Both the position numbers and the translations under genes were made by a program. The notes below the pieces were generated by a model that was not told the origin of the DNA, did not search any database, and worked only from the letters and a program-made list of their open reading frames with translations. A stretch of 64,000 nucleotides of DNA from Acidobacteriota bacterium (lineage in GTDB: Bacteria > Acidobacteriota > Terriglobia > Terriglobales > Acidobacteriaceae). Where the stretch lies: NCBI GenBank assembly GCA_021816455.1, contig JAKAXU010000003.1:1-64000 (forward strand), read 5' to 3'. Below, piece by piece: positions 205 to 41,367 of the stretch (its first letter is position 1; each line of letters starts with the position of its first letter).

Positions 205-1140
205 CTATCCTTGATCGGGATATATGACCGGATGGTCCCTTGGGCTTGCCAGCTGAGTCAAGATTTGATTGCACCCATTACAGCAGGGTGGAAAGAGGAA
301 ACGAGAGAGTCCTGCTCTGTGACTCCATCCCGCTGCCACGATTGCAATTTTAAGATCGTAGGCTATCCGCCTGAAATAATGCAGCGGATCTGCGAATGCG
401 TGTTCACGAATATGCGCAGATAAAGTAATAATCGCAGTTCGCGCTGCGGCGTGCAAGTGTGACCGCACTCGCGCCTGGATGTGGTCTGGATAGTACAGCT
501 GGATGAAGAGGAGAGTGGAAAGACCTGCGTGACGAAGTGGCTTTGCTCCACTGCGCCTTTGCCAGGCGTGACGGACTTGCGCATCCGGCAGGAATTTAAC
601 TAGAGATTCAGATTTGGCGCGCAGATAAAGTGCCATGTCCTCGTTTGCCGCAAAAGGAAAGTGTTCGTCAAAGCCGCCGATCTTATCAAATAGAGCGTGC
701 CGGATGGCAAAGTTGCAGGACCAGAGATGCCCTCCTGTTTCGTTATCCGGACAGTAATCTGCAAAGCCTTTTCGTTTTCCGATGGCGGTAATCCGTCCTT
801 CGAATACGTCGATCCCCGGGTTTTCGTCTGCGAATCGTGAGTATCTTTCAACCAGATCTGGAGAAGGAATACAGTCATCGTCGAGAAAAATAAGAAGCGG
901 TGCCGTTGTAGCTTTTGCTCCGCAGTTGCGGTTGGCTGCGGGTCCTTTCTGAGGCCCCTGAACAACGGTAACGCGAGGAAACTCTTGATGAAGAGCTTGG
1001 CGTGTGAGTTCAGCATCGCCATCATCTGTGACTATGACGTCTAAATCTTGCTCGGAGCAAGGAAGCTGCCTGAGGCACTGGATTAATATTTCCGTACGAC
1101 GAAAAGTGGGGATAACGATCGCAACCTCGCTGAATTTCAT
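205..1140 (-). CDS. Glycosyltransferase family 2
   Basis: Inverting-type GT-A glycosyltransferase of about 311 residues, probably adding a sugar to a surface polysaccharide or lipid carrier in the cytoplasm. The N-terminus has the family pattern VAIVIPTFRR, then VIVTDDGD, and the nucleotide-sugar and metal-binding DxD-type motif in LIFLDDDCIPSPDL. A later ED pair (FAANEDMALYLR) fits the catalytic base region. No membrane segment is obvious. I chose ATG 1140 because GGAGG lies 8 bases upstream. The frame stays open 62 codons further upstream, but that part reads as low-complexity sequence with no homology signal. The acceptor sugar cannot be told. The next gene upstream on the same strand is a broken acyltransferase, so the locus may be a decaying remnant of a polysaccharide cluster. 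Confidence 0.85.
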   Translation of the reverse strand: MKFSEVAIVIPTFRRTEILIQCLRQLPCSEQDLDVIVTDDGDAELTRQALHQEFPRVTVVQGPQKGPAANRNCGAKATTAPLLIFLDDDCIPSPDLVERYSRFADENPGIDVFEGRITAIGKRKGFADYCPDNETGGHLWSCNFAIRHALFDKIGGFDEHFPFAANEDMALYLRAKSESLVKFLPDAQVRHAWQRRSGAKPLRHAGLSTLLFIQLYYPDHIQARVRSHLHAAARTAIITLSAHIREHAFADPLHYFRRIAYDLKIAIVAAGWSHRAGLSRFLFPPCCNGCNQILTQLASPRDHPVIYPDQG

Positions 1141-26337: not shown

Positions 26338-28776
26338 CTAAAAGCCTCCTCCGGATATGTAGGTGTACTGGACTTTCGAGTTTTTCTGCGGTCCGTCGCC
26401 AGTGAGGTCATGGAGATGCCAGGCGACGCTCTCGCCTGCAACTTCCGGATGTTTGCGCAGAAATTGCAGAGCATAGATGGAGGCAGTGGGGTCGATTTTT
26501 TCATCGGCAAAGCGCGCGGCCTCATAGCTGGCTTTGCTGCGCTGTCCGAGACGTCGATAGAGGATGGCCAGGTTGTAGTGTGCGGCGAGATCGTCTGGGT
26601 CGATCGCCTGGAGCTTCTGGTAAATTTCTTCCGCTTTCGTGTACTCGTGTTTCTGGTAGTAGCTGAATCCCAACTGTCGCAAAGCGTCGCGGGAGCGGGG
26701 ATAGCCGACCAGCACTGATTGTAGGTCGACGATTGCCTGATTGACGTCACCGGCATTGCGCTCGACGAGTGCACGATAGTAGAGCGCGCGCGCATCACCC
26801 GGCATGAGAGCCAGCGCGCGGGCAAGATTCGGACGCGCGTCGTCGTATTTTTCCCAAAGAATTTCGACCACCGCCATATTGGTGTAGGCATCGCCGTAGT
26901 CTGGACGCAGAGCCGCGACGCGCTCGAATGCGTGGACCGAGGCGGCATACTGCTGGGCGTCGAGCAAAGCGATTCCGAAGTTGTTCCAGCGCATCCATTC
27001 GGGATTTTCATCGGCCTGCGGGCGCACGGGATTGTTCTTGCCGAGGACGAAGGTTCGCGTCTGCGAGGCCATCTCGACGACCGGCTCAGGATAATGCTGT
27101 TTGTTCATCGCAAAGTCGATGAAGTGCTGGTCAAATCGACGATAGCGGACCGAGGCGGAGATCCGAATGGGGCCTTTGACATCGTTGGGCAGGCGGAAGC
27201 GATAGCGAACGATCTGACTGCGGCCGGACTGGATCGTGTTGTTGTAGGCGAGAACGCGGTTGTGCCAGATCTGATGCAGGTCGTTGAACTGCCCCTGCTT
27301 GTTGATGATGCGATTGGTGAAGGAATGTGCCTCGGTATCGAGGTCGCCGTTCGGCTGCAAAAATCCACTTTCCGCCAGTGTCTTTCCGGTACCATCTTTG
27401 ACCACGAAGTTGACCCAGGATTCATAAAAGTCCCGCTGCTCTGGAACGAAAGAGTGTCCAATCCCTTTGTTCTGAATGACGACGTCAGCTACGAGGGTTT
27501 CTCCGCCAGCCAGAGAAAAGCTAGTGAGTCCGAGTGGCGCGACGAGGACGGAGTCGTTTCTGGTGGCACCGGCGCTTTCGATCTCCAAGGCAAAGAGATC
27601 GACGTTGAAAACGCCGGTCTTCAGGAATGCGTCGACTTTGGCCGCCTGATCGGGATATTTATAAAACTGTGGAATGAGGGTGTTTGCCCCGACCCATCGA
27701 TGATCTTCCAGCATTCCCTGCGTGCTGGTGTAATCGGAGGCTCCGGAGGGCAGAGGCGCGCTCTTCATGTGGCAGGTCTGGCAGGTGGAGACAGAGTCCT
27801 TGCGGTAAAAGGGAAGGGGCGATTGTTTGGCGAAGCTGGAGTTCTGCCACTCGTCGTAGACGGTGAAGGCGCGAAGCCATTTGTAGTCGTCCAGCGTTTT
27901 GGGAATGGCCGCTTTATGGCAGGCGGCGCAGAACTCAGGAGTACTCAGCAGAGGGCGCATGACTGCCTGGCTGTGCCGGTCGAGGTGCGCGAGAATTTCG
28001 CTGTCCGGCACGGGGGAGGTGATCGGCTGTCCATGCTCGTCGACCAGGACGGCGGGAATTCCCATCACCCAGCTGCCGGTGCCCATGGTCGTTGTGGAGA
28101 CCATGGCGTGGCAGGTCATACAGGTGACACCCTCGCTGGCGAAAGGACGTTTGCGCGGCATGCCCTGAGAGAGATCGCCGGAGAGCAGCGCGACGGGATT
28201 ATGACAGCCTTCGCAGTGCCGGGCGTACTGCACACCCTTTTCGTCGATCAGCATGTTGACGTTGCGCAGGTACCAGGGAGTGCGAAAGCTGTTGGCGTGG
28301 GCTGACTGGCGCCACTGGTGATAGCTCTCTTTGTGGCAATGGCCACAGTATTCGGCGGTCAGAAAGCTCTTCGGGCTGTAAAACTGCCCGTTGATACTGG
28401 TTGCGTTCGAGGGCAGGAAGGGATGGTCTTTCCCGAAGGCATAGTTGTAACGGCCTGCGACGTGCTGGTCGTACTGCGAGGGCGGAACGACGGCCCAAGG
28501 TGCGACGGTGGGCTGATCGGGAGGGTAGGACGAATCGCCGAAGACGCCCTGATCGTCGGAATCCGTGGAGGAGGAACCGGAGGCAGAGGCGGGCTGCGAC
28601 TGAGTGTTTGACGCGGCGGCAGAGTCCTGCGGACCGGACTTCGGTTTTGAGGCAGCCAGCGCCGATTCGGATAGAGATCCGGCGAGAAGTGCGGAGGCTG
28701 CCAGAGAGGCGAGCAGGACAAAGGAAGCAGAGCGCGCAAATCCGGGGCCGATCGATTGCAGACGCGCAGAGAACAT
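26338..28776 (-). CDS. Exported five-heme cytochrome c with C-terminal TPR repeats
   Basis: 812 residues from ATG 28776 (GGAGG 11 bases upstream). The signal peptide is FARSASFVLLASLAASALLA with cleavage after ALA near 41, followed by a Ser/Ala/Gln-rich linker to about 75. Five heme sites are seen: CGHCH 144, CEGCH 188, CMTCH 219, CAACH 283 and CQTCH 332. This arrangement resembles the cytochrome c554 type. Residues about 390-600 form a beta-rich region, and the last 200 are TPR repeats (for example YASVHAFERVAALRPDYGDAY). Likely a periplasmic or surface electron-transfer protein; the acceptor is unknown. The frame is open 106 codons upstream but that stretch has no signal. It heads a pair with the small cytochrome c and is divergent from nuo. 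Confidence 0.85.
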   Translation of the reverse strand: MFSARLQSIGPGFARSASFVLLASLAASALLAGSLSESALAASKPKSGPQDSAAASNTQSQPASASGSSSTDSDDQGVFGDSSYPPDQPTVAPWAVVPPSQYDQHVAGRYNYAFGKDHPFLPSNATSINGQFYSPKSFLTAEYCGHCHKESYHQWRQSAHANSFRTPWYLRNVNMLIDEKGVQYARHCEGCHNPVALLSGDLSQGMPRKRPFASEGVTCMTCHAMVSTTTMGTGSWVMGIPAVLVDEHGQPITSPVPDSEILAHLDRHSQAVMRPLLSTPEFCAACHKAAIPKTLDDYKWLRAFTVYDEWQNSSFAKQSPLPFYRKDSVSTCQTCHMKSAPLPSGASDYTSTQGMLEDHRWVGANTLIPQFYKYPDQAAKVDAFLKTGVFNVDLFALEIESAGATRNDSVLVAPLGLTSFSLAGGETLVADVVIQNKGIGHSFVPEQRDFYESWVNFVVKDGTGKTLAESGFLQPNGDLDTEAHSFTNRIINKQGQFNDLHQIWHNRVLAYNNTIQSGRSQIVRYRFRLPNDVKGPIRISASVRYRRFDQHFIDFAMNKQHYPEPVVEMASQTRTFVLGKNNPVRPQADENPEWMRWNNFGIALLDAQQYAASVHAFERVAALRPDYGDAYTNMAVVEILWEKYDDARPNLARALALMPGDARALYYRALVERNAGDVNQAIVDLQSVLVGYPRSRDALRQLGFSYYQKHEYTKAEEIYQKLQAIDPDDLAAHYNLAILYRRLGQRSKASYEAARFADEKIDPTASIYALQFLRKHPEVAGESVAWHLHDLTGDGPQKNSKVQYTYISGGGF

Positions 28777-29177
28777 GGCAGACGAGACCTCCGGGGAAGA
28801 AGACAGCGGGTTGAAGCAAGTTCGGGCGGAGCGAATGTGAGGAAGCGATCCGACGGATATGTCCCAAAGTTTCTGGCCGCGCTGATCTATAGAACGAAGA
28901 TTAGCAGGAACGCGGATACTGCTGTCTTCCACCCAAGGTTGTAGTTCTGAATCCGGCCAGGGTGAGGCTGTGGTCTCCATTTTTCGGGATGTGGGATGTT
29001 TTGCGCGATGTGCATTCCCTGCGGGTGGCGTACCGAACGGGGAACCTTTTACGATGAAGTGCGAAAAGGTGTGGCTGAAATGTGATTCAGTCACGGGCGT
29101 CTATCTTCCGTGAAGGCGCAAACTGATAGGGTAAAAACTGGCGCGGCATTTGTGACGAAGACCGCGAAGAGTCCATC
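28777..29177. other. Divergent control region between the multiheme cytochrome and nuo
   Basis: About 400 bases with no convincing gene. It must hold promoters for both directions. A weak GTGA-N5-TCAC palindrome lies near 29082-29094. Towards nuoA there is an extended -10 candidate listed separately. An open frame on the minus strand continues the cytochrome upstream, but its sequence looks non-coding. Confidence 0.45.
29124..29132 (+). promoter_or_regulatory. Weak candidate -10 element for the nuo operon
   Basis: TGATAGGGT: a TG-N extension followed by TAGGGT, about 45 bases before nuoA. It matches the consensus only partly and no -35 box is evident. Confidence 0.25.
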
Positions 29178-29543
29178 ATGGCCATCTACGCACCGATCCT
29201 GATCTTGTTTTTCGCCGCTCTTGGCTTCGCTCTGGCTCCGCTGATGCTGGCGCGCCTGTGGGCTGTCTGGGTTTCGCCGCCTAAACCGAATGCGACGAAG
29301 AACGCCATTTATGAGTGCGGACTGGAGTCCCGAGGGGACGCATGGGTGCAGTTCCGCTCTGGATATTACCTTTACGCGATCATTTTTCTCATTTTTGACG
29401 TGGAAGCTGTTTTTCTACTGCCGTTTGCGGTTGCATTCACGGGTCTGGGCGCCGGTGCCTGTCTGGCGATGTTTGTCTTTGTGCTGTTGCTGGTCGAAGG
29501 GTTGGCCTGGGCGTGGGCGAAGGGTGTGCTGACGTGGGCGTGA
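29178..29543 (+). CDS. nuoA: NADH-quinone oxidoreductase subunit A
   Basis: 121 residues with three membrane helices, the usual size. The conserved loop NAIYECGLESRGDAWVQFRS and the helix YYLYAIIFLIFDVEAVFLLP with its two acidic residues are clear. NuoA sits beside NuoH at the junction of the membrane and peripheral arms, where quinone reduction couples to proton movement. First gene of a 12-gene operon running to 41367. Confidence 0.96.
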   Translation: MAIYAPILILFFAALGFALAPLMLARLWAVWVSPPKPNATKNAIYECGLESRGDAWVQFRSGYYLYAIIFLIFDVEAVFLLPFAVAFTGLGAGACLAMFVFVLLLVEGLAWAWAKGVLTWA

Positions 29544-29575
29544 GCCGAGTGGGCTTGGGGACCGAGGAGTGAGGA

Positions 29576-30214
29576 ATGGCAGTCGAGCCGGATCTGAAGA
29601 TTGAATTGGGCAAACAGGGAGTCTTCGTGACCACCCTGAATGAACTGTATAACTGGGGTCGCCGCAACTCCGTGTGGCCGATGCAGTTTGGCTTGGCCTG
29701 CTGCGCCATCGAGATGATTGCGACGACGATGGCGCGTTACGACCTTGCGCGCTTTGGAGCGGAGGTTTTTCGTCCTTCGCCGCGTCAGGCGGACCTGATG
29801 ATTATCTCCGGGACGGTGACTAAGAAGATGGCTCCACAGGTGGTTCGGTTGTACAACCAGATGGCGGAGCCGCGTTATGTGATTGCGATGGGCGCGTGCG
29901 CGATCTCCGGCGGCCCGTTCAAGCAGGGGTATAACGTGCTGAAGGGGATCGATCGCTACATTCCGGTGGACGTGCATATTCCGGGCTGTCCGCCGCGGCC
30001 GGAGGCGTTGATTCACGCCTTTATGACGCTTCAGAAAAAGATTGCGGCACAGCCTCTGACGGGCGAATCGCGTCCGCGTCATCTGGACGCGCTGGCTCAG
30101 GGCGAGTTTCCAGTACCGGTTCCGTCAGCGCACGACCTGGAGCCTCCGGTGAACCGTCTGGTGTGGCCGCTTCCGGCTGGCGCAGCAACGGCAGGCAGTG
30201 GAGAAACGGCATGA
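29576..30214 (+). CDS. nuoB: NADH-quinone oxidoreductase subunit B
   Basis: 212 residues. Carries the terminal 4Fe-4S cluster N2 that reduces quinone: adjacent Cys42-Cys43 in [10 protein letters not shown], a further Cys in [12 protein letters not shown] and the last in [11 protein letters not shown]. These are all present. The C-terminus has a Pro/Ala-rich tail of about 50 residues beyond the core fold, longer than in E. coli, which may be unstructured. Starts 32 bases after nuoA and overlaps nuoC by ATGA. Confidence 0.96.
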
Positions 30215-30888
30215 AGTCGGCAGAGGAACTTGTGGAGGAGTTGAAGAGTGCGCTGCCAGGTGTGGATGTGGCACTGGTTGTCAATCCAAGCCCGTCGGCG
30301 CAGCATTCGCTGCGGGTTGCCGCGGAGGATGCTTTGCGCGTAGCGGCGTATCTGCGCGATCAGGCCGGATACGATTACTGCTCGAACGCCACCGGAGTGG
30401 ACTGGCTGGACAAGGAGACGAGCGAGAAGGTGAAGACGACGCGGACGGTCTCCAAGCAGGTGGATGGTGTCGAGCAGATGGTTGAGGAAGTCGTGGAGGA
30501 GACGGTCAAGCGTGTGGAACCGGGCTTCCTGGAGGCGGTGTACCACCTGTACTCGATGAAGCGCGGACATTCGGATCCGCATCCGCCGCTGGTGCTGCGC
30601 ATGCGCACGGAGAATCGTGCGGATCGTGTGGAGTTGCCGTCGCTGACGCCGGTCTGGCGCTCGGCGGAGTTTCAGGAGCGAGAGATATTCGATCTTTACG
30701 GGATCGTCTTCAAGGGCCATCGGGATCTGCGTCGGCTGCTGATGTGGGAGGAGTTTGAGGATCATCCGATGCGTCGGGATTATGTCGATCCGGATGACTA
30801 TGAGTACGAGCCGACACCGCATGATGAGGTGCTGAAGCGAGCCGAGGAGCATCGGGCGCAGATGGCTGCGGCGGAGGGAGCGCGATGA
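30211..30888 (+). CDS. nuoC: NADH-quinone oxidoreductase subunit C
   Basis: 225 residues from ATG 30211. The C-terminal signature [15 protein letters not shown] followed by [20 protein letters not shown] is typical of the 30-kDa subunit of the peripheral arm. Between the N-terminal fold (GVDWLDKET) and [11 protein letters not shown] there is an insertion at about 68-103, rich in Glu, Lys and Val, which most NuoC proteins lack; it probably forms a charged helix on the surface. The subunit stays separate from NuoD, unlike the NuoCD fusion of E. coli. Overlaps both neighbours by 4 bases. Confidence 0.94.
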
Positions 30889-32039
30889 GCGGAACGGGGA
30901 TTCAATCCTTTCTTCCTCCGGTTATCGACGTGGAGGCGGGCGAGGAACTGCTGGAAGTCGCGATGGGACCGCACCATCCCTCAACGCATGGCGTTTTCCG
31001 GATGGACGTGGCGCTGGACGGGGAGCGAGTTGTGAGGTTGAAGCCGGTTTTTGGCTATCTGCATCGCAACCACGAGAAGATCGCGGAGAAGACGACGTAT
31101 CTGGCATCGATGCCGTATACCGATCGGTTGGATTACTTCTGCTCGATGACCAACAATTGGGCCTACGCGCTGGCGGTGGAAAAGCTGGCGGGTATGGAGG
31201 TGCCGGAGCGCGCCGAGTATCTGCGCGTGATCACGGCAGAGCTGACGCGCGTGCAGAACCACGCCAGCGCGATTGGATTTCTGCTGCAGGAGATGGGTGC
31301 CAGCGGGACTCCGCTGATGTACGCCTTTCGCGAGCGGGAGAAGATACTTGATCTCTTCGAGGCGCTGAGCGGCTCGCGTATGATGTGCAACTACATGCGC
31401 TTTGGCGGATGTCGCGTGGACCTTCCGGCAGGCTGGCTGGATCGCGCGAAACTGGTGGTCGCCGGCCTGCCGCGTTTCATCGATGAGATCGAAGCACTGC
31501 TGACGAGCAATGAAATCCTGATGGCGCGATCGCAGGGGGTGGGCGTGCTGAGGCCGGAGCTGGCAGTGAATGCCGGCGTGACGGGCGTGATGCTGCGAGC
31601 CACCGGCGTCAACTACGATGTGCGCAAGGTCGATCACTACGGCATCTACGATCGATTCAGCTTTCGCGTTCCGCTTGGCGATCACGGCGACATCTATGAC
31701 CGATACATGTTGCGCGTGCTGGAGATGCGCGAGTCGGTGAAGATACTCGAACAAGCGATGGCGCAGATTCCGGAAGGACCGATTCTTGATCCGAAGTCGA
31801 AGCCGCGCGGTTTTCGTCCGAAGCCGGGCGAGGCGTATGGCCGTATCGAAGCGCCGAAGGGCGAGCTTGGTTTTTATCTCATAAGTGATGGCTCAGGCAA
31901 TCCGTATCGCTATCGCGTGCGCCCGCCATCGCTCATTAACCTCACGATTCTTGAGGACATGTGCCTGGGGCAGAATGTCGCCGATGTGGTGCTGATCTTT
32001 GGCAGCGTGGATATTGTGCTGGGCGAGGTGGATCGATGA
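30885..32039 (+). CDS. nuoD: NADH-quinone oxidoreductase subunit D
   Basis: 384 residues, the usual size of the 49-kDa subunit, related to NiFe-hydrogenase large subunits but without metal-binding cysteines. The quinone-site loop [13 protein letters not shown] is present near the start, as are [12 protein letters not shown] and the C-terminal [12 protein letters not shown]. With NuoB it forms the quinone cavity. Starts within the nuoC stop. Confidence 0.96.
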
Positions 32040-32064
32040 GAAACGGCCCGCAGCGGGAGGCGCA

Positions 32065-32733
32065 ATGTTAGGCGAAGGAATCCTGAAGGGATTGGCGGAG
32101 ACTGCGAAGAATTTTGCTGGGAGTTTTGTCTCCGAAGAGCGGCTGACGACGGTCGAGTACCCTGAGGTGCGTCTGCCGCAGATTGAAAATACGCGGGATT
32201 TTCCGTTTCTGGTCTATGACGGCAACGATCCAATGGCGGGTCTGCGCTGCGTCTCCTGCCAGATATGCGAGAAGGAATGCCCGCCGAAGTGCATTTATAT
32301 CATCAAGAGTACCGACAAGAAACCGGATTATGTGGGAAAGCCGCAGTTTTATCCTGCGCGCTTCGATATCGATGTTTCTGTTTGCATGAGTTGCCAGATC
32401 TGCGTGGAGGTCTGTCCGTTCGACGCGATCAAGATGAATACCGAGTTTGAGCTGAGCACGGACGATCGCTTCGGCGGCTTGATACTGGACAAGCACAAGC
32501 TGGCCAAGTCGAACGAGTACTACCAGCACATTCATCCGACGGAGGCAGCCGAGGTAGATGGTCGGCTGGCCGAGGAAAAAGCGAAGGTAGAGGCCAAGGC
32601 AAAGGCCGCAGCCGAGGCGGCAGCGGCAAAGGCAGCGGCGGCGAAAGCTGCTGAAGGCGCTGCCAAGGCTGCCGATAGGGCAGCAGACGGAGCTTCCGGG
32701 CAACCGTCGGGTGCCAGGGAGGGCCGTGCATGA
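32065..32733 (+). CDS. nuoI: NADH-quinone oxidoreductase subunit I with Ala/Lys-rich tail
   Basis: 222 residues from ATG 32065, preceded by GGGAGG. Two 4Fe-4S binding sites: Cys62, 65, 68, 72 (CVSCQICEKECPP) and Cys107, 110, 113, 117 (CMSCQICVEVCPFDAI), passing electrons to NuoB. The usual subunit ends near residue 165. Here a tail at about 168-222 follows, made almost only of Ala, Lys, Glu and Gly, probably a long charged helix. Placed between nuoD and nuoH, not after nuoH. As NuoE, F and G are missing, NuoI may be where electrons enter this complex. Overlaps nuoH by ATGA. Confidence 0.95.
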   Translation: MLGEGILKGLAETAKNFAGSFVSEERLTTVEYPEVRLPQIENTRDFPFLVYDGNDPMAGLRCVSCQICEKECPPKCIYIIKSTDKKPDYVGKPQFYPARFDIDVSVCMSCQICVEVCPFDAIKMNTEFELSTDDRFGGLILDKHKLAKSNEYYQHIHPTEAAEVDGRLAEEKAKVEAKAKAAAEAAAAKAAAAKAAEGAAKAADRAADGASGQPSGAREGRA

Positions 32734-33941
32734 ATCCAGGTATTGCTTCCCGCGTGGACCAGATTTTTGTCATTCTGCAGCATCGCATCGCAGAGTTGTT
32801 TCCTGCCGTGTTGCAGCCGTGGGTCGCGATGATCCTTGGCGTGGTGGGCATTGTTGCGGTCTTTCCGGGTATCTTCGCGTTGACGACGGTGCTGGAGCGC
32901 AAGGGGCTGGGGCGCATGCAGAACAGGCTGGGGCCGAATCGCGTGGGGCCTTTCGGAATTCTGCAGCCGATCGCCGATGCGATCAAGTCGCTGACCAAGG
33001 AAGATATCGTGCCGCGCACCGCCGATGAGGTGGTGCATTTTCTGGCCCCGGTGGTTCTGGTGGTCGCCATCTTCCTCGGCTATGCGGTGCTGCCGGTGGG
33101 ACGCAATATGGTGCTGCTGAAGATCGACTCGGGCATCCTGTTTTTCTTCGCGATCGGAGCATCGACGGAGCTTTCGATCTTCATGGCCGGTTGGTCGAGT
33201 CGCAACAAGTATTCGCTGCTGGGCGCGATGCGGGCTGTAGCTCAAATGATCAGCTATGAGGTGCCTCTGCTGCTGGCGGCAGTGGTGGCGATCATGATGA
33301 CCGGCTCTCTTTCGCCGACGGCAATCGTGCGGGCGCAGGGTGGATTCACGGGTTTTTTCCCGCGCTGGTATGTTTTCACTCCTTGGGGCTTTGCGGGTTT
33401 TGTTCTCTTCGCCATTGCCGCGCTTGCGGAGACCAACCGATCGCCGTTTGACCTTCCGGAAGGAGAGTCGGAGTTGGTGGCCGGCTACTTCACGGAATAC
33501 TCGGGGTTTAAGTTTGCATTGTTTTTTCTAGGCGAATATCTGGGCATGATGTCGATTGCAGGCTATGGTATTACGCTCTTCCTGGGCGGCTGGGGTGCGC
33601 CAGCCTCTTTTCTGGAATTCATTCCGTCATGGGCGTGGTTTTTTGCCAAACTCTTTCTGGCCATCTTCTTTTTCATCTGGCTGCGAGGCACCTTGCCGCG
33701 CTTGCGCCAGGATCAGCTCATGAACTTCGCCTGGAAGTTTATGCTGCCGATGACTCTGCTAAATCTGATGGTGGCCGCGGCATGGAGATTTCTGGGCGAG
33801 TGGTTTGGAACAGGTATTTTGGCAGAGGGTGTGCGCTGGCTGCTGTGCGCGGCGATTCTGGCGGGAGCCTACGTTGCGCTTGCGCTGACGCTGTTGCGTC
33901 GCCAGAAGATCGCGGCAAGGAGCTATCGTTATGCCGACTGA
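32730..33941 (+). CDS. nuoH: NADH-quinone oxidoreductase subunit H
   Basis: 403 residues, about eight membrane helices, somewhat longer than E. coli (325). Conserved landmarks: KGLGRMQNRLGPNRVGPFG, AETNRSPFDLPEGESELVAG and YSGFKFALFFLGEY, the acidic loop facing the quinone channel. It closes the quinone site from the membrane side and links to NuoA, J and K. The extra length is partly at the N-terminus before the first helix. Confidence 0.96.
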   Translation: MNPGIASRVDQIFVILQHRIAELFPAVLQPWVAMILGVVGIVAVFPGIFALTTVLERKGLGRMQNRLGPNRVGPFGILQPIADAIKSLTKEDIVPRTADEVVHFLAPVVLVVAIFLGYAVLPVGRNMVLLKIDSGILFFFAIGASTELSIFMAGWSSRNKYSLLGAMRAVAQMISYEVPLLLAAVVAIMMTGSLSPTAIVRAQGGFTGFFPRWYVFTPWGFAGFVLFAIAALAETNRSPFDLPEGESELVAGYFTEYSGFKFALFFLGEYLGMMSIAGYGITLFLGGWGAPASFLEFIPSWAWFFAKLFLAIFFFIWLRGTLPRLRQDQLMNFAWKFMLPMTLLNLMVAAAWRFLGEWFGTGILAEGVRWLLCAAILAGAYVALALTLLRRQKIAARSYRYAD

Positions 33942-33974
33942 TTTGATGAGCTGCCGGAAAGGATCACTACAGCG

Positions 33975-34484
33975 ATGATGGAAGGTTTCCTATTCGGATT
34001 GCTGGCAGTGTTGACGCTGTCCGGAGCGGTTGGCGCTGCGCTGCTGCGCAATCTTGTCCACTGCGCGCTGAGCCTGACGCTGACGTTTGTCGGATTGGCG
34101 CTGCTTTATCTGAACCTGGACGCGCAGTTTGTGGGCTTGTCGCAGGTTCTGGTGTACATCGGTGCGGTGGCGATTCTGGTGGTTTTTGCCATTCTGCTGA
34201 CGGGCGGAGCGGGGAAGATGCCGACTCATCCGACGGTTTCCGCGGGTTGGAGGACGGGCTGGCTGGCTGCGGTGGCTGTGGGTTTCGTGCTAATTGGCGC
34301 GCTTCTACATTCGCCGTTGCCTCACTCGGACGTTCCCGCACCGGAGGTTACGGTGCAGCAGATCGGCCGACTTCTGATGGGACCGTATGTTCTGCCGCTG
34401 GAGATTGTTGCGGTTCTGCTGACGGTGGCGCTGATTGGCGCCGTGATCGTTGCCATGCCGGAGCGGAAGGGGGAGTCGAAATGA
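33975..34484 (+). CDS. nuoJ: NADH-quinone oxidoreductase subunit J
   Basis: 169 residues, five membrane helices. The third helix carries the family pattern LSQVLVYIGAVAILVVFAIL, which includes the pi-bulge region needed for coupling. Preceded by 33 bases after nuoH, the longest gap within the downstream half of the operon. Two ATG codons (33975, 33978) are possible starts. Overlaps nuoK by ATGA. Confidence 0.95.
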   Translation: MMEGFLFGLLAVLTLSGAVGAALLRNLVHCALSLTLTFVGLALLYLNLDAQFVGLSQVLVYIGAVAILVVFAILLTGGAGKMPTHPTVSAGWRTGWLAAVAVGFVLIGALLHSPLPHSDVPAPEVTVQQIGRLLMGPYVLPLEIVAVLLTVALIGAVIVAMPERKGESK

Positions 34485-34789
34485 GCCTGACGGCTTATCT
34501 GGTGGTTGCGGCGCTGCTGTTCACACTGGGTCTGGGAATTGCACTGACGCGCAGGAATGCGATTCTCGTTTTGATCGGGATTGAATTGATGCTGAATGCC
34601 GCGAATCTGAATCTGGTGGCATTCTGGCGATTCGGAGCTCATCCGGAGTTCCTGACGGGGATGCTCTTTGCACTGTTTTCCATCGCCGTTGCCGCAGCGG
34701 AGGCGTCGGTGGGACTTGGGCTGGTGATTGCCTGGCATCGCCACTCCAGGACGACCGATCTGGACGGCATGACAAGGATGAAAGGATGA
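34481..34789 (+). CDS. nuoK: NADH-quinone oxidoreductase subunit K
   Basis: 102 residues, three membrane helices, normal size. Both buried glutamates are present, in LIGIELMLNAANLN and in the third helix (AVAAAEASVGLGLV). They form part of the central proton path. ATG 34481 has a GGGGGAG site before it. The stop overlaps the nuoL start. Confidence 0.96.
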   Translation: MSLTAYLVVAALLFTLGLGIALTRRNAILVLIGIELMLNAANLNLVAFWRFGAHPEFLTGMLFALFSIAVAAAEASVGLGLVIAWHRHSRTTDLDGMTRMKG

Positions 34790-36891
34790 CAGCTTTGCAG
34801 ATGGCCACCATCGCTTCGCCGGACTCCGCCTCGGTCGCATGGATCGTGCGCAGTCTCTGGCTGATTCCCGCCGTGCCGATGGCAGCAGCCGGGCTGATTG
34901 CGCTGCTTCCGCAGCCACGGCGACGCCCGGCGGCGATGCTTGCGGTCGGTTCGCTTGCGGTCTCCTTTCTGCTTGCTGTGACGGCTTTTGCGCATGTGCT
35001 GCTGCACTGGAGCAGCGGCGCTGCGACGCGAGAGACGGTGAGCGTCGACTGGCTCTCGCTCGGCTCTTCGACACTCCAGATGGGCTGGGTGCTGGATCCG
35101 CTGGCCGCGATCATGCTGGTGATGGTCACGTTTGTCGGGTCGTTGATCTTCATCTACTCGATCGGCTACATGAGTCATGATGAAAATTTCACGCGCTTTT
35201 TCTGTTTTCTGGCGCTCTTCGCCGGAGGGATGCTTGGCGTTTTGATCGCTAACAGCCTGCTGCTGTTGTTCATGTGCTGGGAGATCGTCGGATTGACCTC
35301 GTACCTGCTGATCGGCTTCTGGTATCAGAAGCCAAGCGCCGCGGCGGCTGCGAAGAAGGCATTTCTGACGACGCGCGTGGGCGACATCTTCTTTCTGCTG
35401 GGCATGGTGTGGCTCTTTGCACAGACCGGGACGCTGCTTTTTTATAACCACGGAGCAGGAGCGATGGAACCAGCCGCGCTGGCGGTGCTGCTGAGCCAGC
35501 ATGCGGCGTGGGGACTGAGCGCCGCAGGAGCCATCGGATTGTTGATCTTTGCGGGGGCAGCGGGCAAGAGCGGTCAGCTTCCGCTGCATGTGTGGCTGCC
35601 GGATGCGATGGAAGGTCCGACGCCGGTCTCGGCGCTGATTCACGCGGCGACGATGGTGGCTGCCGGAGTGTATCTGGTTGCGCGCGTTTATCCGCTGATG
35701 AGCGCGGGCGCCGGTGCGGGAACGACGACGGTTCCGCTGACCGTGGTGGCGTGGATTGGCGCGACAACGGCGCTCTTTGGAGCGCTTGTCGCGGTGGCGC
35801 AGTTCGATATCAAGCGCATTCTTGCTTACTCGACGGTCTCTCAGCTTGGATACATGATGGTGGGGCTGGCCACGGGTGGCGTGGCCGTTGGGATGTTCCA
35901 TCTGATCACGCACGCGTTCTTCAAGGCACTGCTCTTCCTTGGCGCTGGCTCTGTGATTCATGGCTGCCACGAGGAGCAGGATATTCGGCGCATGGGCGGA
36001 CTGCGTTCGGATATGCCGCTTACCTTTGCCACCTATACGGTCGGCATGCTGGCGTTGAGCGGATTTCCGATTCTGTTTTCCGGCTTCTGGAGCAAGGACG
36101 CGATTGTGGGCGCGGCGCACCACTGGCCTGTCTCGCAGGGGCCGTTTTGGATGCTGCTGATCGGAGCTTTGCTGACGGCGTTTTACATGATGCGTCAGGT
36201 GGGATACGTCTTCCTGGGAAGGTGGCGCGGCCACGGACATGCGCATGAGTCGGCCGCGGTGATGACCGTTCCGCTTGCGGTGCTGGCGTTTTTTGCCATG
36301 GCTCTGGGACTGCTGGGAACACCGGCATGGCCGTGGTTCACCGCCTTCCTGGAGAGTCGTCCGCTGGCCTTTGATTTTGCCGGATTCGGCGAGCCGGGCC
36401 TGCTCCCGCTGATGGCGGCAACTTCGCTGCTGGTTCTGCTGGCGCTGGGCGTTGGATGGCGGCTCTATGTCACGAAGGCAAATGACAGCGATGCGGATCC
36501 GGATGTTCTGCAGACGGCGTCGCCGACGGTCTTTCGATGGCTGGAGTCACGGCTCTACTTTGACGAGTTGTATGGGGCGACATTCCTGCGCGCGTATGCT
36601 TTGTGCGCCGCGTTTGCCGCGTGGCTGGATCGTCGGCTGTGGGGTGGTCTTGTGGCGCTGGTCGCCGATGGTTTCCAGGCCCTCGGGCAATGGAACAAAT
36701 CTGTGGACGGTCAGTGGATCGATGGCGGCTTCGACAAAGGTTGCGAGGAGCTGACAACGGCCGGAGGAGTGCTGGCGTGGCTGCAAACAGGGCGCGCACC
36801 GGGTTATCTTCGTACACTGGCCCTCGGCTTGCTGCTGCTCCTGCTGGGGCTGATGGTGGTAGCCTCCACACTCGGGCAGGTGAAGCTATGA
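34786..36891 (+). CDS. nuoL: NADH-quinone oxidoreductase subunit L with extended lateral helix
   Basis: 701 residues; E. coli NuoL is 613. The antiporter core is intact: the TM5 Glu in LLFMCWEIVGLTSYLLIG, the TM7 Lys in AGAAGKSGQLPLHVWLPDAMEGPTPVS, and the broken-helix region QFDIKRILAYSTVSQLGYM. The extra length is mostly in the lateral helix that runs along the membrane arm. From LYFDELY (590-596) to the last membrane helix (GYLR, 673-676) there are 87 residues, against my count of about 53 in E. coli and about 58 in typical relatives. Such an extension is what would be needed to reach past an additional NuoM. Overlaps nuoK and nuoM1 by 4 bases each. Confidence 0.96.
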   Translation: MTALQMATIASPDSASVAWIVRSLWLIPAVPMAAAGLIALLPQPRRRPAAMLAVGSLAVSFLLAVTAFAHVLLHWSSGAATRETVSVDWLSLGSSTLQMGWVLDPLAAIMLVMVTFVGSLIFIYSIGYMSHDENFTRFFCFLALFAGGMLGVLIANSLLLLFMCWEIVGLTSYLLIGFWYQKPSAAAAAKKAFLTTRVGDIFFLLGMVWLFAQTGTLLFYNHGAGAMEPAALAVLLSQHAAWGLSAAGAIGLLIFAGAAGKSGQLPLHVWLPDAMEGPTPVSALIHAATMVAAGVYLVARVYPLMSAGAGAGTTTVPLTVVAWIGATTALFGALVAVAQFDIKRILAYSTVSQLGYMMVGLATGGVAVGMFHLITHAFFKALLFLGAGSVIHGCHEEQDIRRMGGLRSDMPLTFATYTVGMLALSGFPILFSGFWSKDAIVGAAHHWPVSQGPFWMLLIGALLTAFYMMRQVGYVFLGRWRGHGHAHESAAVMTVPLAVLAFFAMALGLLGTPAWPWFTAFLESRPLAFDFAGFGEPGLLPLMAATSLLVLLALGVGWRLYVTKANDSDADPDVLQTASPTVFRWLESRLYFDELYGATFLRAYALCAAFAAWLDRRLWGGLVALVADGFQALGQWNKSVDGQWIDGGFDKGCEELTTAGGVLAWLQTGRAPGYLRTLALGLLLLLLGLMVVASTLGQVKL

Positions 36892-38402
36892 GCCATGTTC
36901 TTTCTTTTCTGACGGCGCTGCCGGTTGCGGGCGCAGTGCTTGCCGGGCTTGCCGGTGCGCGAGCGCGTATGATCGCGCTGGCCGTCTCGCTCATCGCGCT
37001 TGCAGGATCGGTGTGGATATGGTTTTCGGTCGGCACGGTCGGCCGGATGGTCTTTGTGGAACGCTCGGTGTGGGTGCCGGACCTGGGCATCGAGTACCAC
37101 CTGGGCGTGGATGGCCTGGGTGCCATGATGCTGGTGCTGGCGGCGCTGGTGACGGTCATCTCGCTCTTTGCCTCCCGCTCGGTGTTGCGTCAGCCGGGCT
37201 TGTATTTCGGTCTGGTGCTTCTGCTGGAGGCTGGACTTTTCGGCACCTTTACCGCGCTGAATTTCTTCCACTGGTTCCTGTACTGGGAGCTGAGCCTGAT
37301 TCCAGCTTTTTTCCTGATTCGCCTGTGGGGAGGGCCGCGCCGGGGTCCGGCAGCGACCCAGTTCTTTGTGTACACGATGGTCGGTTCGGTAGCGTTGCTA
37401 CTGTCGTTCCTGGCCTTGTTCGTTGCGACGGGCGGCATGGATTTTCTCGCGCTTGCGCAACTGGCTTCAACGGGCGAGCTGCATCGGCTGGTCGAAGCAC
37501 ACCTCGGTCATCTGGAAATGTTGCTGGCCTGCGGAGTCCTGCTAGGTTTTGCCGTCAAGGTGCCGCTGATGCCGTTCCACACATGGCTTCCGGAGACCTA
37601 TGCCGAAGCGCCGACGGCGATCACTATCCTGCTGACCGGGGCGATGTCGAAGATGGGCGTCTATGGGCTGATCCGGATCGCGCTTCCGATCTTCGGCAGG
37701 GAGCTGTTCGCATTGCGCGGCGAACTGCTCACGCTGGCCGTGCTGACTGTGGTGGCCGGAGCGTGGGCCGCGGTGGTGCAGAAGGATCTGAAACGTATCT
37801 TTGCCTATTCGTCAATCAATCATCTGGGCTACTGTCTGCTGGCCCTCTTCGCGGTGCTGTTGCCGACGGCTGGCGACCCGGCGCGGACGTTGAGCGCTTC
37901 TGCTGCGCTGGACGGGGCAATTCTGCAAATCTTCAATCATGGCCTGACCGCAGCCACCATCTTCTGGTTCCTCTGCATGCTGGAGGAGCGCAGCAAGGGC
38001 GCGCTGTTGCTGGACGACTTTGGCGGGTTGCGGAAGAAAGTGCCGGTCTTTTGCGGCCTGATGGGGATTGCACTCTTTTCGTCGCTGGGCCTGCCCGGGC
38101 TGAACGGATTCGTCAGTGAATTTCTGATCTTCCGCGGAGTCTTCCCGCTGGCCTGGCAGGCGGCGACGGTTGCAGTGCTCGGACTTCTGATTACGGCTGC
38201 CGTGATTCTTACCGTTCTCCAGCGCGTTTTCAGTGGTCCTCTGCGGGATCGCTGGAGCGCGATGCCGGACCTGACTTTGACGGAGCGGGTGGCTGTTGCA
38301 CCGGCTCTCGTGCTGATGCTGCTTCTGGGCCTTGTGCCACAGATTCTTCTTGGCGTAATCAATCCGACCGTCCTTCATCTTATCGACGGGTGGAGATTCT
38401 GA
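36888..38402 (+). CDS. nuoM: NADH-quinone oxidoreductase subunit M, first copy
   Basis: 504 residues, about 14 membrane helices, normal length. All antiporter residues are in place: Glu in FLYWELSLIPAFFLI, Lys224 in FAVKVPLMPFHTWLPETYAEAP, Lys in TGAMSKMGVYGL, and Glu in LNGFVSEFLIF. Start ATG 36888 overlaps the nuoL stop; the frame is open further upstream only as a shadow of nuoL. The stop TGA shares its last base with the ATG of the second copy. The two copies are clearly different proteins, not a recent duplication. Confidence 0.95.
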   Translation: MSHVLSFLTALPVAGAVLAGLAGARARMIALAVSLIALAGSVWIWFSVGTVGRMVFVERSVWVPDLGIEYHLGVDGLGAMMLVLAALVTVISLFASRSVLRQPGLYFGLVLLLEAGLFGTFTALNFFHWFLYWELSLIPAFFLIRLWGGPRRGPAATQFFVYTMVGSVALLLSFLALFVATGGMDFLALAQLASTGELHRLVEAHLGHLEMLLACGVLLGFAVKVPLMPFHTWLPETYAEAPTAITILLTGAMSKMGVYGLIRIALPIFGRELFALRGELLTLAVLTVVAGAWAAVVQKDLKRIFAYSSINHLGYCLLALFAVLLPTAGDPARTLSASAALDGAILQIFNHGLTAATIFWFLCMLEERSKGALLLDDFGGLRKKVPVFCGLMGIALFSSLGLPGLNGFVSEFLIFRGVFPLAWQAATVAVLGLLITAAVILTVLQRVFSGPLRDRWSAMPDLTLTERVAVAPALVLMLLLGLVPQILLGVINPTVLHLIDGWRF

Positions 38403-39928
38403 TGCTTGCGTGGACGATCTATCTTTCCTTTGGCGGCGCATTGCTGATCGCCCTGTTCACGCAGGGGCGGCCGCAAATGGCGCGCGCTCTTGCCCTGGTT
38501 ACTGCGCTGGGCGGGCTGATCCTTGCTGTTCTGGCGTTCTTTACGCAGTCCGGCGTCGCTCCGATTGTGGATGCAGCGTGGATTCCGGCGATGGGCATCC
38601 GATATACGCTCTCGGCCGACGGCATCAGCCGCGTGCTGGTTCTGCTGACCGGCTTCGCAGCGGTAGCCGGAGTTCTTTTCTCATGGAACATCGATCGGCG
38701 CGTGAATGAATTTTTTGGGTTCTACCTGGCGCTGATCGGCGGGGTCTACGGTGTCTTTCTCTCCGCGGATCTTTTTCTGTTTTTCGTCTTCTATGAGGTT
38801 GCCATTGTTCCCAAGTATTTTCTGATCGCGATATGGGGTTCCACGCGTCGCGAGTATGGGGCGATGAAGCTGGCGCTCTACTCGTTTCTCGGGTCGGCAA
38901 TGGTGCTTGTAGGCCTGCTGGCGGCATACGCCATCTCTGGTGGACACACGCTGAATCTTGCCGCATTGCAGCAGTTTGCATTCCCAGTATCGTTCCAGAT
39001 GTGGGCCTTTCCGCTGGTCTTTCTGGGATTTGCAATTCTTGCGGGCATTTGGCCGCTGCACACCTGGGCGCCAACGGGCCACGTTGCGGCTCCCACGGCG
39101 GCATCGATGCTGCTGGCTGGCGTGGTGATGAAACTGGGCGCTTACGGGTGTCTTCGCGTTGCGATGACGCTGTTCCCGCATGGCCTCGATCCGTGGGGAT
39201 GGAGCTTCCTCGGCATCGGCTCATGGAGGGCGGTTTTTGCATTGCTCGCGGTAATTGGGATCGTCTATGGAGCCGCAGTGGCGCTAATCCAGAATGACTT
39301 CAAGTTCGTCATTGGCTACTCCAGCGTCAGTCACATGGGGCTGGTTCTGCTGGGGTTGATGTCATTGAGCCAGATCGGTCTCGACGGGGCGGTGCTCCAG
39401 ATGTTTTCTCACGGCGTACTCGCCGGGCTGCTCTTTGCTACGGTGGGCCGCATCGTTTATGAGCGCACCCATACGCGAGACCTGAGCGCGCTGAGCAGGA
39501 TGCACCTCAGTCGCACGCTTCCATTTGCTGCATGGCTCTTCGTTCTTGCGGGCATGGCTTCCATGGGTCTGCCCGGATTCAGCGGCTTCATCGCGGAGTT
39601 GCAGGTGCTGATCGGCGCGTGGGCGGCCTTCCCGGTCTTTACGGTGATTGCCGGAGTGGGGATCGTAGTGGGAGTTGCTTATACCTGGCGCGCGATGCAG
39701 AAGGCATTTTTCAGCGATGCCCCGGCAGGCAGTTCGCCATCGGCTTTATCCCTTCCATCGCAGGAGCTGCATGTCTTTGATCCGATTACCTGGGCAGAGA
39801 AAGCAGGGGTCGTGCTGCTGCTGGCGGCCAGTCTCGCGGTCGGACTGGCACCTCGACTGTTGCTGGACCAGATTACTCCGGCAGTTCTCGCGCTGCCCCA
39901 TACTCTGCTGACGGGAGGCCGTCTATGA
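38402..39928 (+). CDS. nuoM: NADH-quinone oxidoreductase subunit M, second copy, TM7 lysine missing
   Basis: 508 residues, the same fold as NuoM. The TM5 Glu (FVFYEVAIVPKYFLI), the TM8 Lys (GVVMKLGAYG) and the TM12 Glu (FSGFIAELQVL) are present. In TM7 the usual K-(V/L)-P is replaced: residues 210-222 read FAILAGIWPLHTW, with Leu213 where NuoM1 has Lys224. This lysine is considered central for proton transfer, so the second copy may move protons differently or play a structural part. ATG 38402 overlaps the stop of the first copy (TGATG); GTG 38390 is in frame but less likely. Overlaps nuoN by ATGA. Confidence 0.94.
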   Translation: MLAWTIYLSFGGALLIALFTQGRPQMARALALVTALGGLILAVLAFFTQSGVAPIVDAAWIPAMGIRYTLSADGISRVLVLLTGFAAVAGVLFSWNIDRRVNEFFGFYLALIGGVYGVFLSADLFLFFVFYEVAIVPKYFLIAIWGSTRREYGAMKLALYSFLGSAMVLVGLLAAYAISGGHTLNLAALQQFAFPVSFQMWAFPLVFLGFAILAGIWPLHTWAPTGHVAAPTAASMLLAGVVMKLGAYGCLRVAMTLFPHGLDPWGWSFLGIGSWRAVFALLAVIGIVYGAAVALIQNDFKFVIGYSSVSHMGLVLLGLMSLSQIGLDGAVLQMFSHGVLAGLLFATVGRIVYERTHTRDLSALSRMHLSRTLPFAAWLFVLAGMASMGLPGFSGFIAELQVLIGAWAAFPVFTVIAGVGIVVGVAYTWRAMQKAFFSDAPAGSSPSALSLPSQELHVFDPITWAEKAGVVLLLAASLAVGLAPRLLLDQITPAVLALPHTLLTGGRL

Positions 39929-41367
39929 CAGCCGCAGCCTACGGCAATCTTTTCAGCATTCTGTGGCCGGAGTCGATCCTGGAAATTGTCTCCCTGGTGA
40001 TCCTTGTTGTGGATTTGGGCTGGATGCGAGGCGAGACGACGGCGACCCGCATGCGTGTAGCCAGTTTGCTGGGATCGATTGGAGCGGTGCTTTCGTTCGC
40101 CTGGCTGGAGATGCACGTCGGCATCGCGTCTGTGATGGGTGGCGCGCTGGTTTCCTCGCCGACGGTTGTCGCGGCACAGTCTTGCATCCTCATCCTCACG
40201 ACTCTGGTTCTGCTGCTTGGCCTCTCCGTGCGCTTCACGCGCAACCCGGGCGAGTACGTCGCGCTGGTTTTGCTGGCAACGACGGGCATGATGCTGGTAG
40301 CCGCTGCGCGTGACCTGCTGATCATCTTTGTTGCGCTTGAGATGCTGAGTCTCTCGCTTTATGTTCTTGCCGCATTTGCCAAAGATTCGGCGGCATCGGC
40401 CGAAGCTGCGCTCAAGTACTACCTCTTCGGAGGAATGTCGGCAGCGTTTATGCTCTTTGGCTTCAGCTACCTCTACGGCTTGACCGGAACGACGAGCCTT
40501 TCGGCGATTGCCGCTTCCTTGGCGATTGCTCCGCTTACGCCCCTCGCTTTGGTTGCTTTGGTTCTGGCCGCGGTTGGCCTGGGCTTCAAGGTTGCTGCGG
40601 TTCCGTTCCACCTCTGGGCGCCAGACACGTATCTGGGCGCGCCCGCTCCGGTGGCTGCTCTGATCGCCTCCGGCTCCAAGGTTGCCAGCTTCGCCGTGCT
40701 CATCGCTGTCACTGCTGCGCTGGTCCCCGCGTGGGGATGGACGGCGACGCTGCTTTGCATGGCGGCAGCCTCGATCGTGCTGGGAAATCTCTCGGCACTG
40801 GTCCAGTCGAGTGTTCGTCGCATCCTTGCCTGCTCGGCCATCGCACATGCCGGATACATGCTGCTGGGCATCGCGGCGCATACCCTGGCAGGCGATCAGT
40901 CCGTAATGACATATGCCGTGACCTATGCGCTGACGACGGTTGGAGCCTTCGGCGTCGTGGCCATTGTCGAGCGCAGTGCAGGCAGTGATCGCCTGGACGC
41001 CTTTGCCGGTCTGAGCGCGCGCAGTCCGCTGCTTGCGGCCACGCTGCTGGTCTTTCTGCTTTCGCTTGCCGGAATTCCACCGTTGGTTGGTTTCTGGGTG
41101 AAGTTTCAGATGTTTGCCGCTGTGTTGCGCGCACCGCTCGCATCGGGATGGGGACTTGGCCTGGTCATGCTCGCTATTGCAGGCAGCGCAGTCTCGCTCT
41201 ACTACTATTTACAGGTTCTCAAGCGCGCCTACGTGACTCCCGCCGTTATTTCCGCTCCGTTGAAGGTTACGCGCCTGGAGCTTTTTCTACTGGTTGCGAT
41301 TGCCGTGGCGGTTGTCCTGCTCGGAATTTTCCCGGATATGCTGATGCAGTGGATTCCTGCTGTGTAA
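39925..41367 (+). CDS. nuoN: NADH-quinone oxidoreductase subunit N
   Basis: 480 residues, about 14 membrane helices, normal size. TM5 Glu in LLIIFVALEMLSLSLYVL, TM7 Lys in GLGFKVAAVPFHLWAPDTYLGAPAP, and KVASF in TM8 are present. It is the antiporter-like subunit nearest NuoK. Last gene of the operon. A convergent glycosidase gene ends 48 bases downstream; no clear terminator hairpin is seen in between. Confidence 0.96.
   Translation: MTAAAYGNLFSILWPESILEIVSLVILVVDLGWMRGETTATRMRVASLLGSIGAVLSFAWLEMHVGIASVMGGALVSSPTVVAAQSCILILTTLVLLLGLSVRFTRNPGEYVALVLLATTGMMLVAAARDLLIIFVALEMLSLSLYVLAAFAKDSAASAEAALKYYLFGGMSAAFMLFGFSYLYGLTGTTSLSAIAASLAIAPLTPLALVALVLAAVGLGFKVAAVPFHLWAPDTYLGAPAPVAALIASGSKVASFAVLIAVTAALVPAWGWTATLLCMAAASIVLGNLSALVQSSVRRILACSAIAHAGYMLLGIAAHTLAGDQSVMTYAVTYALTTVGAFGVVAIVERSAGSDRLDAFAGLSARSPLLAATLLVFLLSLAGIPPLVGFWVKFQMFAAVLRAPLASGWGLGLVMLAIAGSAVSLYYYLQVLKRAYVTPAVISAPLKVTRLELFLLVAIAVAVVLLGIFPDMLMQWIPAV

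Follow-up and report, generated by a model that had tools for sequence, protein, structure and literature searches.

This study concerns a complex I cassette with two consecutive nuoM genes, carried by a 64,000-nucleotide stretch (contig JAKAXU010000003.1 of assembly GCA_021816455.1; hereafter the window) from an Acidobacteriota bacterium of the family Acidobacteriaceae, the source genome being a draft that is 86.5% complete. The window has one such cassette, on the plus strand at 29178-41367, with the order nuoA-B-C-D-I-H-J-K-L-M1-M2-N. The second NuoM (M2) has leucine in place of the lysine corresponding to K234 of Escherichia coli NuoM, a change fixed in all M2 sequences compared; the lateral helix of NuoL is lengthened; and a family scan found none of NuoE, F, and G encoded in the cassette. 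The explanation favored here, which is given about an even chance of being correct, is a complex I with a four-module membrane arm and no NADH module (N-module) of its own, in which M2 is a conserved but non-standard module and the proton/electron ratio (H+/e-) is probably not raised by one.

The genes at the center of this proposal are nuoL (34786..36891, 701 aa), nuoM1 (36888..38402, 504 aa), and nuoM2 (38402..39928, 508 aa from its ATG, or 512 from a GTG 12 bases upstream), followed by nuoN (39925..41367), the last gene of the cassette and recognized by the family scan; all are on the plus strand. M1 and M2 share 33% identity across 473 aligned residues, the best PDB sequence-search matches of both are NuoM chains, and the pair recurs in other assemblies, so the first-pass annotation was right to describe two complete and clearly different NuoM genes after nuoL. 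Its observation that the genes overlap by a few bases also stands, with overlaps of 4 bases (L/M1), 1 base (M1/M2; 13 with the GTG start), and 4 bases (M2/N). By gene content this is a 2M complex I, which is defined by a second NuoM in a nuoL-M-M-N cassette together with a lengthened NuoL. An assembly artefact or a pseudogene was considered as the origin of the two-NuoM cassette and ruled out, since the cassette recurs in other genomes and M2 is under purifying selection.

M1 and M2 were aligned residue by residue with E. coli NuoM and the single-copy NuoM of the phylum. The account in PMC5061711 calls K234, K265, and E144 essential in E. coli NuoM, and PMC9271201 describes E144 and K234 as the ion pair of NuoM, the opening of which is a step of an electrostatic wave. 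M1 keeps Glu134 (E. coli E144), Lys224 (K234), Lys255 (K265), and Glu411 (E407), and has Gln158 at the position of K173. In M2, Glu132 (E144), Lys244, His311, His337, and Glu399 are kept, K234 is replaced by Leu213, and there is a new lysine, Lys138, six residues after Glu132. The lost lysine is presumably on transmembrane (TM) helix 7 and the glutamate on TM5.

These differences are fixed. The K234 equivalent is lysine in all 56 single-copy NuoM, E. coli included, and leucine in all 25 M2, the window included. A second genome set, which overlaps the first (25 loci) in part and comprises 50 M2 and 47 M1, with 32 genomes reaching NuoL, has leucine at this site in the M2 of 50/50 other genomes and lysine in 47/47 M1. 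At the equivalent of M150, six residues after E144, every one of the 50 M2 has lysine, while M1 has alanine (46) or threonine (1) and the single-copy NuoM have methionine (54 of 56). The equivalents of E144, K265, H322, H348, and E407 are kept in M2 without exception (50/50), and M1 has its own near-constant change, with glutamine at K173 in 45/47 genomes compared with lysine in 55/56 single-copy NuoM. The replacement in M2 extends to the residues around the lost lysine, where K-x-P has become L-x-G and the equivalents of L244, D246, and A247 are also changed. The changes in M1 and M2 were examined for complementarity, but at 13 and 18 of 72 conserved columns, with 4 shared, they are close to independence and no such relation is claimed.

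M2 therefore has three residues of the standard-pump set (E144, K265, and E407) and lacks the fourth, K234, in every genome checked, and the simple extra pump that the first-pass annotation had proposed does not survive in that form. For the 2M class it has been proposed that the extra NuoM is a standard pump; this lies outside the gene-content definition of the class. Among the literature matches listed there was no report of the loss of a K234-type lysine in a 2M NuoM, although Chadwick et al. 2018 may discuss it. M2 is not decaying, as six close comparisons place it under stronger constraint than L, M1, and N: its ratio of nonsynonymous to synonymous substitution rates (dN/dS) is 0.034-0.069, each time below those of the other three, these ratios being rough because many dS values exceed 1. 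The AlphaFold2 model of M2 has a predicted local distance difference test score (pLDDT) of 92.6, and its closest fold is Paracoccus NuoM, with a template modeling score (TM-score) of 0.90.

Because the ion-pair lysine, which the other modules conserve, is lost, M2 would be unable to operate exactly as the other modules do. It may act as a relay without pumping, or the new lysine may take over; the balance leans toward the relay because several neighboring conserved sites have changed too, and a plain "fifth proton" from M2 is doubtful. The enzyme envisaged is a 2M-type respiratory complex I without NuoE, F, and G, in which a ferredoxin-like carrier would probably deliver electrons to NuoI and quinone would be reduced at NuoD/B/H, judging from their motifs. 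Four antiporter-like modules, L-M1-M2-N, would assemble together and be clamped by the long NuoL lateral helix, and M2 would most likely be a structural or relay module carrying the coupling signal along the arm, with an H+/e- ratio that is probably not simply one proton higher.

The lengthening of NuoL was noted in the first-pass annotation as 87 residues between LYFDELY and GYLR; this is the count with both motifs included, and 76 residues lie between them. Measured on the alignment from FDELY up to the last TM helix, the span has 81 residues in the window (592-672) compared with 52 in E. coli, and the 37 other Acidobacteriota NuoL have 55-57, giving an insert of 29 residues over E. coli and 24 over the other acidobacterial proteins, in keeping with the roughly 30 extra residues that had been proposed. 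The span is 81 in 24 of the 25 2M loci, the exception (L019) containing unknown residues, and in all 32 genomes of the second set that reach NuoL.

The absence of the NADH module extends beyond the window, as none of the 18 2M cassettes seen whole upstream has NuoE, F, or G. Electron entry from a ferredoxin-like carrier is suggested because of this missing module. The NuoF family PF01512 has no match in the window's genome, within the limits of the incomplete draft, and apart from a divergent copy on a different contig that genome has one NuoD. In G044, a genome of the same genus, a canonical set that includes E, F, and G lies about 43 kb away from the 2M cassette, so an incomplete draft may explain why the window's genome has no NuoF-family match. 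Synteny between the window and G044 ends near 58.5 kb of the window (100 kb of G044 compared). PF01512 has a match in 57/60 genomes of the family, a count that may include proteins other than NuoF.

A close relative of M2 (E <= 1e-150) is present in 51/200 genomes of the family, the window's own included, and at E <= 1e-110 a relative is present in 13/396 genomes of the phylum, all 13 from the same family. Upstream of M2, the nearest gene of the same type is M1 in 50/50 other genomes, and the order L-M1-M2 is found in 32/32 genomes reaching NuoL. Of the 26 loci from a scan of genome contigs, nearly all carry titles naming Acidobacteria or acidobacterial genera, and plasmid searches with M1 and M2 as queries, meant to reach other phyla, gave only NuoM below 60% identity. 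The NuoM tree of the phylum has four groups, namely short-helix, long-helix single-copy, M1, and M2, with one exception, L086. A clade of M1 and M2 is not rejected (approximately unbiased test, p-AU 0.566), which leaves a recent duplication undecided and means that the two may be sisters. The exception L086 (G073:C20), a cassette with a long helix and one NuoM, sits on a long branch; it lies next to M1 in one tree, and two trees put it next to the 2M group. This placement may be long-branch attraction, or the cassette may be a single-NuoM relative of the 2M line.

The tree of D, H, B, I, K, N, and C from 51 cassettes separates long-helix from short-helix cassettes (Shimodaira-Hasegawa-like approximate likelihood ratio test, SH-aLRT, 99.8), with a single short-span row, L077, among the long ones. 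L077 (G139), which belongs to the long-helix lineage by this tree, has a span of 54 residues and has possibly lost the extension; an additional antiporter-type gene lies near C1:260 kb of its genome. In the NuoL body tree the long/short split is absent, and the types are mixed, with 13 changes. Two-cassette genomes look like cases of NuoL gene conversion that spared the helix length, because NuoL bodies within a genome can be much more similar than the other parts and the NuoL-body tree mixes types that the cassette tree does not. In G125 (L069), the NuoL bodies of the two cassettes are 76% identical compared with 34% for the lateral helix and last TM helix, 54% for NuoM, and 41% for NuoN; the contrast between body and helix is weaker in G105 (63% vs 39%), and most of the 20 genomes examined show little of it.

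Several results weigh against a four-module arm with a non-pumping M2. That both NuoM are built into one complex is a proposal made from the genes, Lys138 could replace the lost lysine, and the 39 flanks of the cassette compared across the family have no candidate electron-donor gene, the widest neighbor families occurring in 7 of them. In the AlphaFold2 model of the window's NuoL, made for the chain alone, a continuous helix covers residues 589-645, but 646-656 are mostly non-helical and 644-672 have pLDDT below 50. A long span is also found in 20 single-NuoM cassettes (81 in 14 of them, 82-92 in the others). If Lys138 does take the place of the K234-type lysine, M2 pumps and the enzyme is an ordinary 2M complex I moving five protons per cycle, an explanation that is regarded as rather doubtful. 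The fixation of both changes in 50/50 genomes, the retention of the other pump residues checked, and the strong constraint on M2 all fit it. However, the stretch surrounding the lost lysine has changed as well and is now like that of HycC from the E. coli formate hydrogenlyase, which has leucine at the K234 site and is nearly identical to M2 there (FGLLAGIIPLHGW vs FAILAGIWPLHTW). The leucine of HycC is noted in PMC5061711, where 18 substitutions in HycC are described as having no effect on the enzyme. HycC differs from M2 in having a hydrogenase partner and alanine where M2 has the new lysine, and on an ideal helix a lysine at i+6 would lie off the glutamate's face.

The long helix of single-NuoM cassettes bears on the rest of the proposal. 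"Single-NuoM" here means one NuoM in the stretch taken, and not every such genome was checked for a spare NuoM elsewhere. Whole-genome counts of PF00361 rule out an overlooked second NuoM for G083 and G131, each listed as one contig and having six PF00361 genes that form two L-M-N sets; G060 has one nuo L-M-N set and two further PF00361 genes near 421-425 kb. Because the extension occurs with one NuoM, its length alone is no proof of two built-in NuoM or of a four-module arm, and it can no longer serve, as it had in the first-pass annotation, as evidence that both copies belong to one complex. It seems improbable, though somewhat more credible than the two ideas considered after it, that the long helix is simply a trait of a lineage without an N-module, unrelated to a second NuoM that was gained or lost at a later point. 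Within the sample, the long helix follows the N-module-less lineage better than it follows the second NuoM, as it is found in the 20 single-NuoM and 24/25 2M loci while 37 loci are short, and E, F, and G were found in 12/12 short-helix, 1/13 long single-NuoM, and 0/18 2M cassettes seen whole upstream, the one positive long single-NuoM cassette (L060) having a lone NuoF hit. The seven-subunit tree agrees with such a lineage, but the NuoL body tree does not, and 13 of the 37 short loci have no E, F, or G in the stretch taken, none of the 13 being seen whole. Cyanobacterial NDH-1 is likewise not known to have E, F, and G. Its NdhF has 75 residues from FDELY to the protein end, similar to E. coli (73) and not long as in the window (110), so the lack of an N-module does not demand a long helix, and published 2M complexes from elsewhere are described as having a similar insert. 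The second NuoM would be a further step within the long-helix lineage, or was lost elsewhere. Another reading, in which the complex has two forms that use either M1 or M2 and each arm has three antiporter modules, would be in line with a long helix that needs no two NuoM genes, but is judged quite unlikely: M1 adjoins M2 in 50/50 genomes, in the window both share an overlapping operon with a single L and a single N, and 24 additional residues would make about 36 Angstrom of helix, or roughly one module. Equally speculative is the idea that the helix measures out the arm like a ruler, with about 24 residues for each antiporter module. Single-NuoM long-helix complexes would then build in the same NuoM twice, while in Acidobacteriaceae diverged genes would occupy the two positions and M2, having lost the ion-pair lysine, would be a non-pumping relay or clutch in a redox-driven proton pump. 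Several of the single-NuoM long spans have an internal repeat of a motif like FD..VVDG.VN.

The 2M class itself is already known, and the loss of the lysine in M2, the long helix in single-NuoM cassettes, and the missing N-module are what the present results add to the first-pass annotation. 2M complex I was reportedly described by Chadwick et al. 2018 (ISME J 12:2668), and the window shares with it a second NuoM adjoining the first and a lengthened NuoL. The link to Nitrospira-type 2M complexes that had been drawn from the start is borne out (PMC6606698, PMC9040806). The 2M complex of Nitrospira moscoviensis resembles the window in that its NADH module is partly missing (PMC6606698), and NuoC and NuoD are described as separate in Nitrospirales, as here. 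Nitrospira clade 3 is different, being described as lacking nuoE, F, and H and having an enlarged nuoG (PMC6606698), while the window has nuoH. In 'Ca. Manganitrophaceae', which belong to another phylum, Complex_I_3 has a helix insert of similar length (26 aa) in MrpD2, but combines two NuoM with two MrpD-like subunits; a NuoL insert of 'similar length' is quoted as well, and Complex_I_1/2 have inserts in NuoL, with gene content and order called canonical-like (PMC9040806). What may set the M2 of the window apart from published 2M complex I is the absence of the K234-type lysine. Acidobacterium capsulatum is taken here to belong to the same family as the window organism, and its complex is probably orthologous to the window cassette. 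Its 'unusual complex I', reported in 2024, has a duplicated nuoM and is expressed; the account in PMC11636273 includes no residue or helix analysis.

The remaining genes of the cassette, all on the plus strand, are those of a complex I. nuoA (29178..29543), the first gene, was recognized by NuoA models, each scoring under its own cut-off, and nuoB (29576..30214) was assigned by the family scan and has the CC and GCPP cysteines. nuoC (30211..30888) is separate from nuoD and matches TIGR01961 at 101.7 bits, not reaching the cut-off of 122.45; approximately residues 74-105 are a seemingly extra charged stretch, and most NuoC models match only downstream of it. nuoD (30885..32039) was assigned by the family scan and has the motif GPHHPSTHG and no CxxC pairs, which are taken here to mark the quinone site and the nickel ligands, respectively, and which indicate a complex I rather than a [NiFe] hydrogenase. 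nuoI (32065..32733) matches NuoI models under their cut-offs and has two CxxCxxCxxxCP motifs and an alanine-rich C-terminal tail; the cluster cysteines of both NuoB and NuoI are kept. nuoH (32730..33941) was assigned by the family scan, nuoJ (33975..34484) by NuoJ models under their cut-offs, and nuoK (34481..34789, 102 aa), which has no family-scan match, by position, length, and relatives in other cassettes. Upstream and divergent from nuoA is a gene on the minus strand (26338-29094) for a 918 aa protein with a cytochrome c554-type heme domain and tetratricopeptide (TPR) repeats, relatives of which occur upstream of the 2M cassette in 7 of the 20 upstream stretches compared, the window included. 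A second complex I-like cluster, L007 (G000:C41, 5864-13047), has two antiporter-type proteins, a fused 30/49 kDa-type subunit, and a 20 kDa-type subunit. In the frame of its large subunit a single CxxC precedes the matched domain and the paired nickel-type motifs are absent; the cluster may be hydrogenase-4-like or 'hydrogenase-related'.

It has long been an open question how complex I couples the reduction of quinone to pumping through a series of homologous modules. According to PMC7419157, this series can be extended to four modules without a change of mechanism. The complex I of the window has an additional module with a fixed loss of the ion-pair lysine that the wave model, as described in PMC9271201, uses to pass the signal on, and so it bears on whether each module must carry the ion pair. 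Its single-NuoM long-helix relatives, in turn, remove the length of the helix as stand-alone proof of an extra pump. The complex of this bacterium may have become longer with no gain in protons pumped by the usual mechanism.

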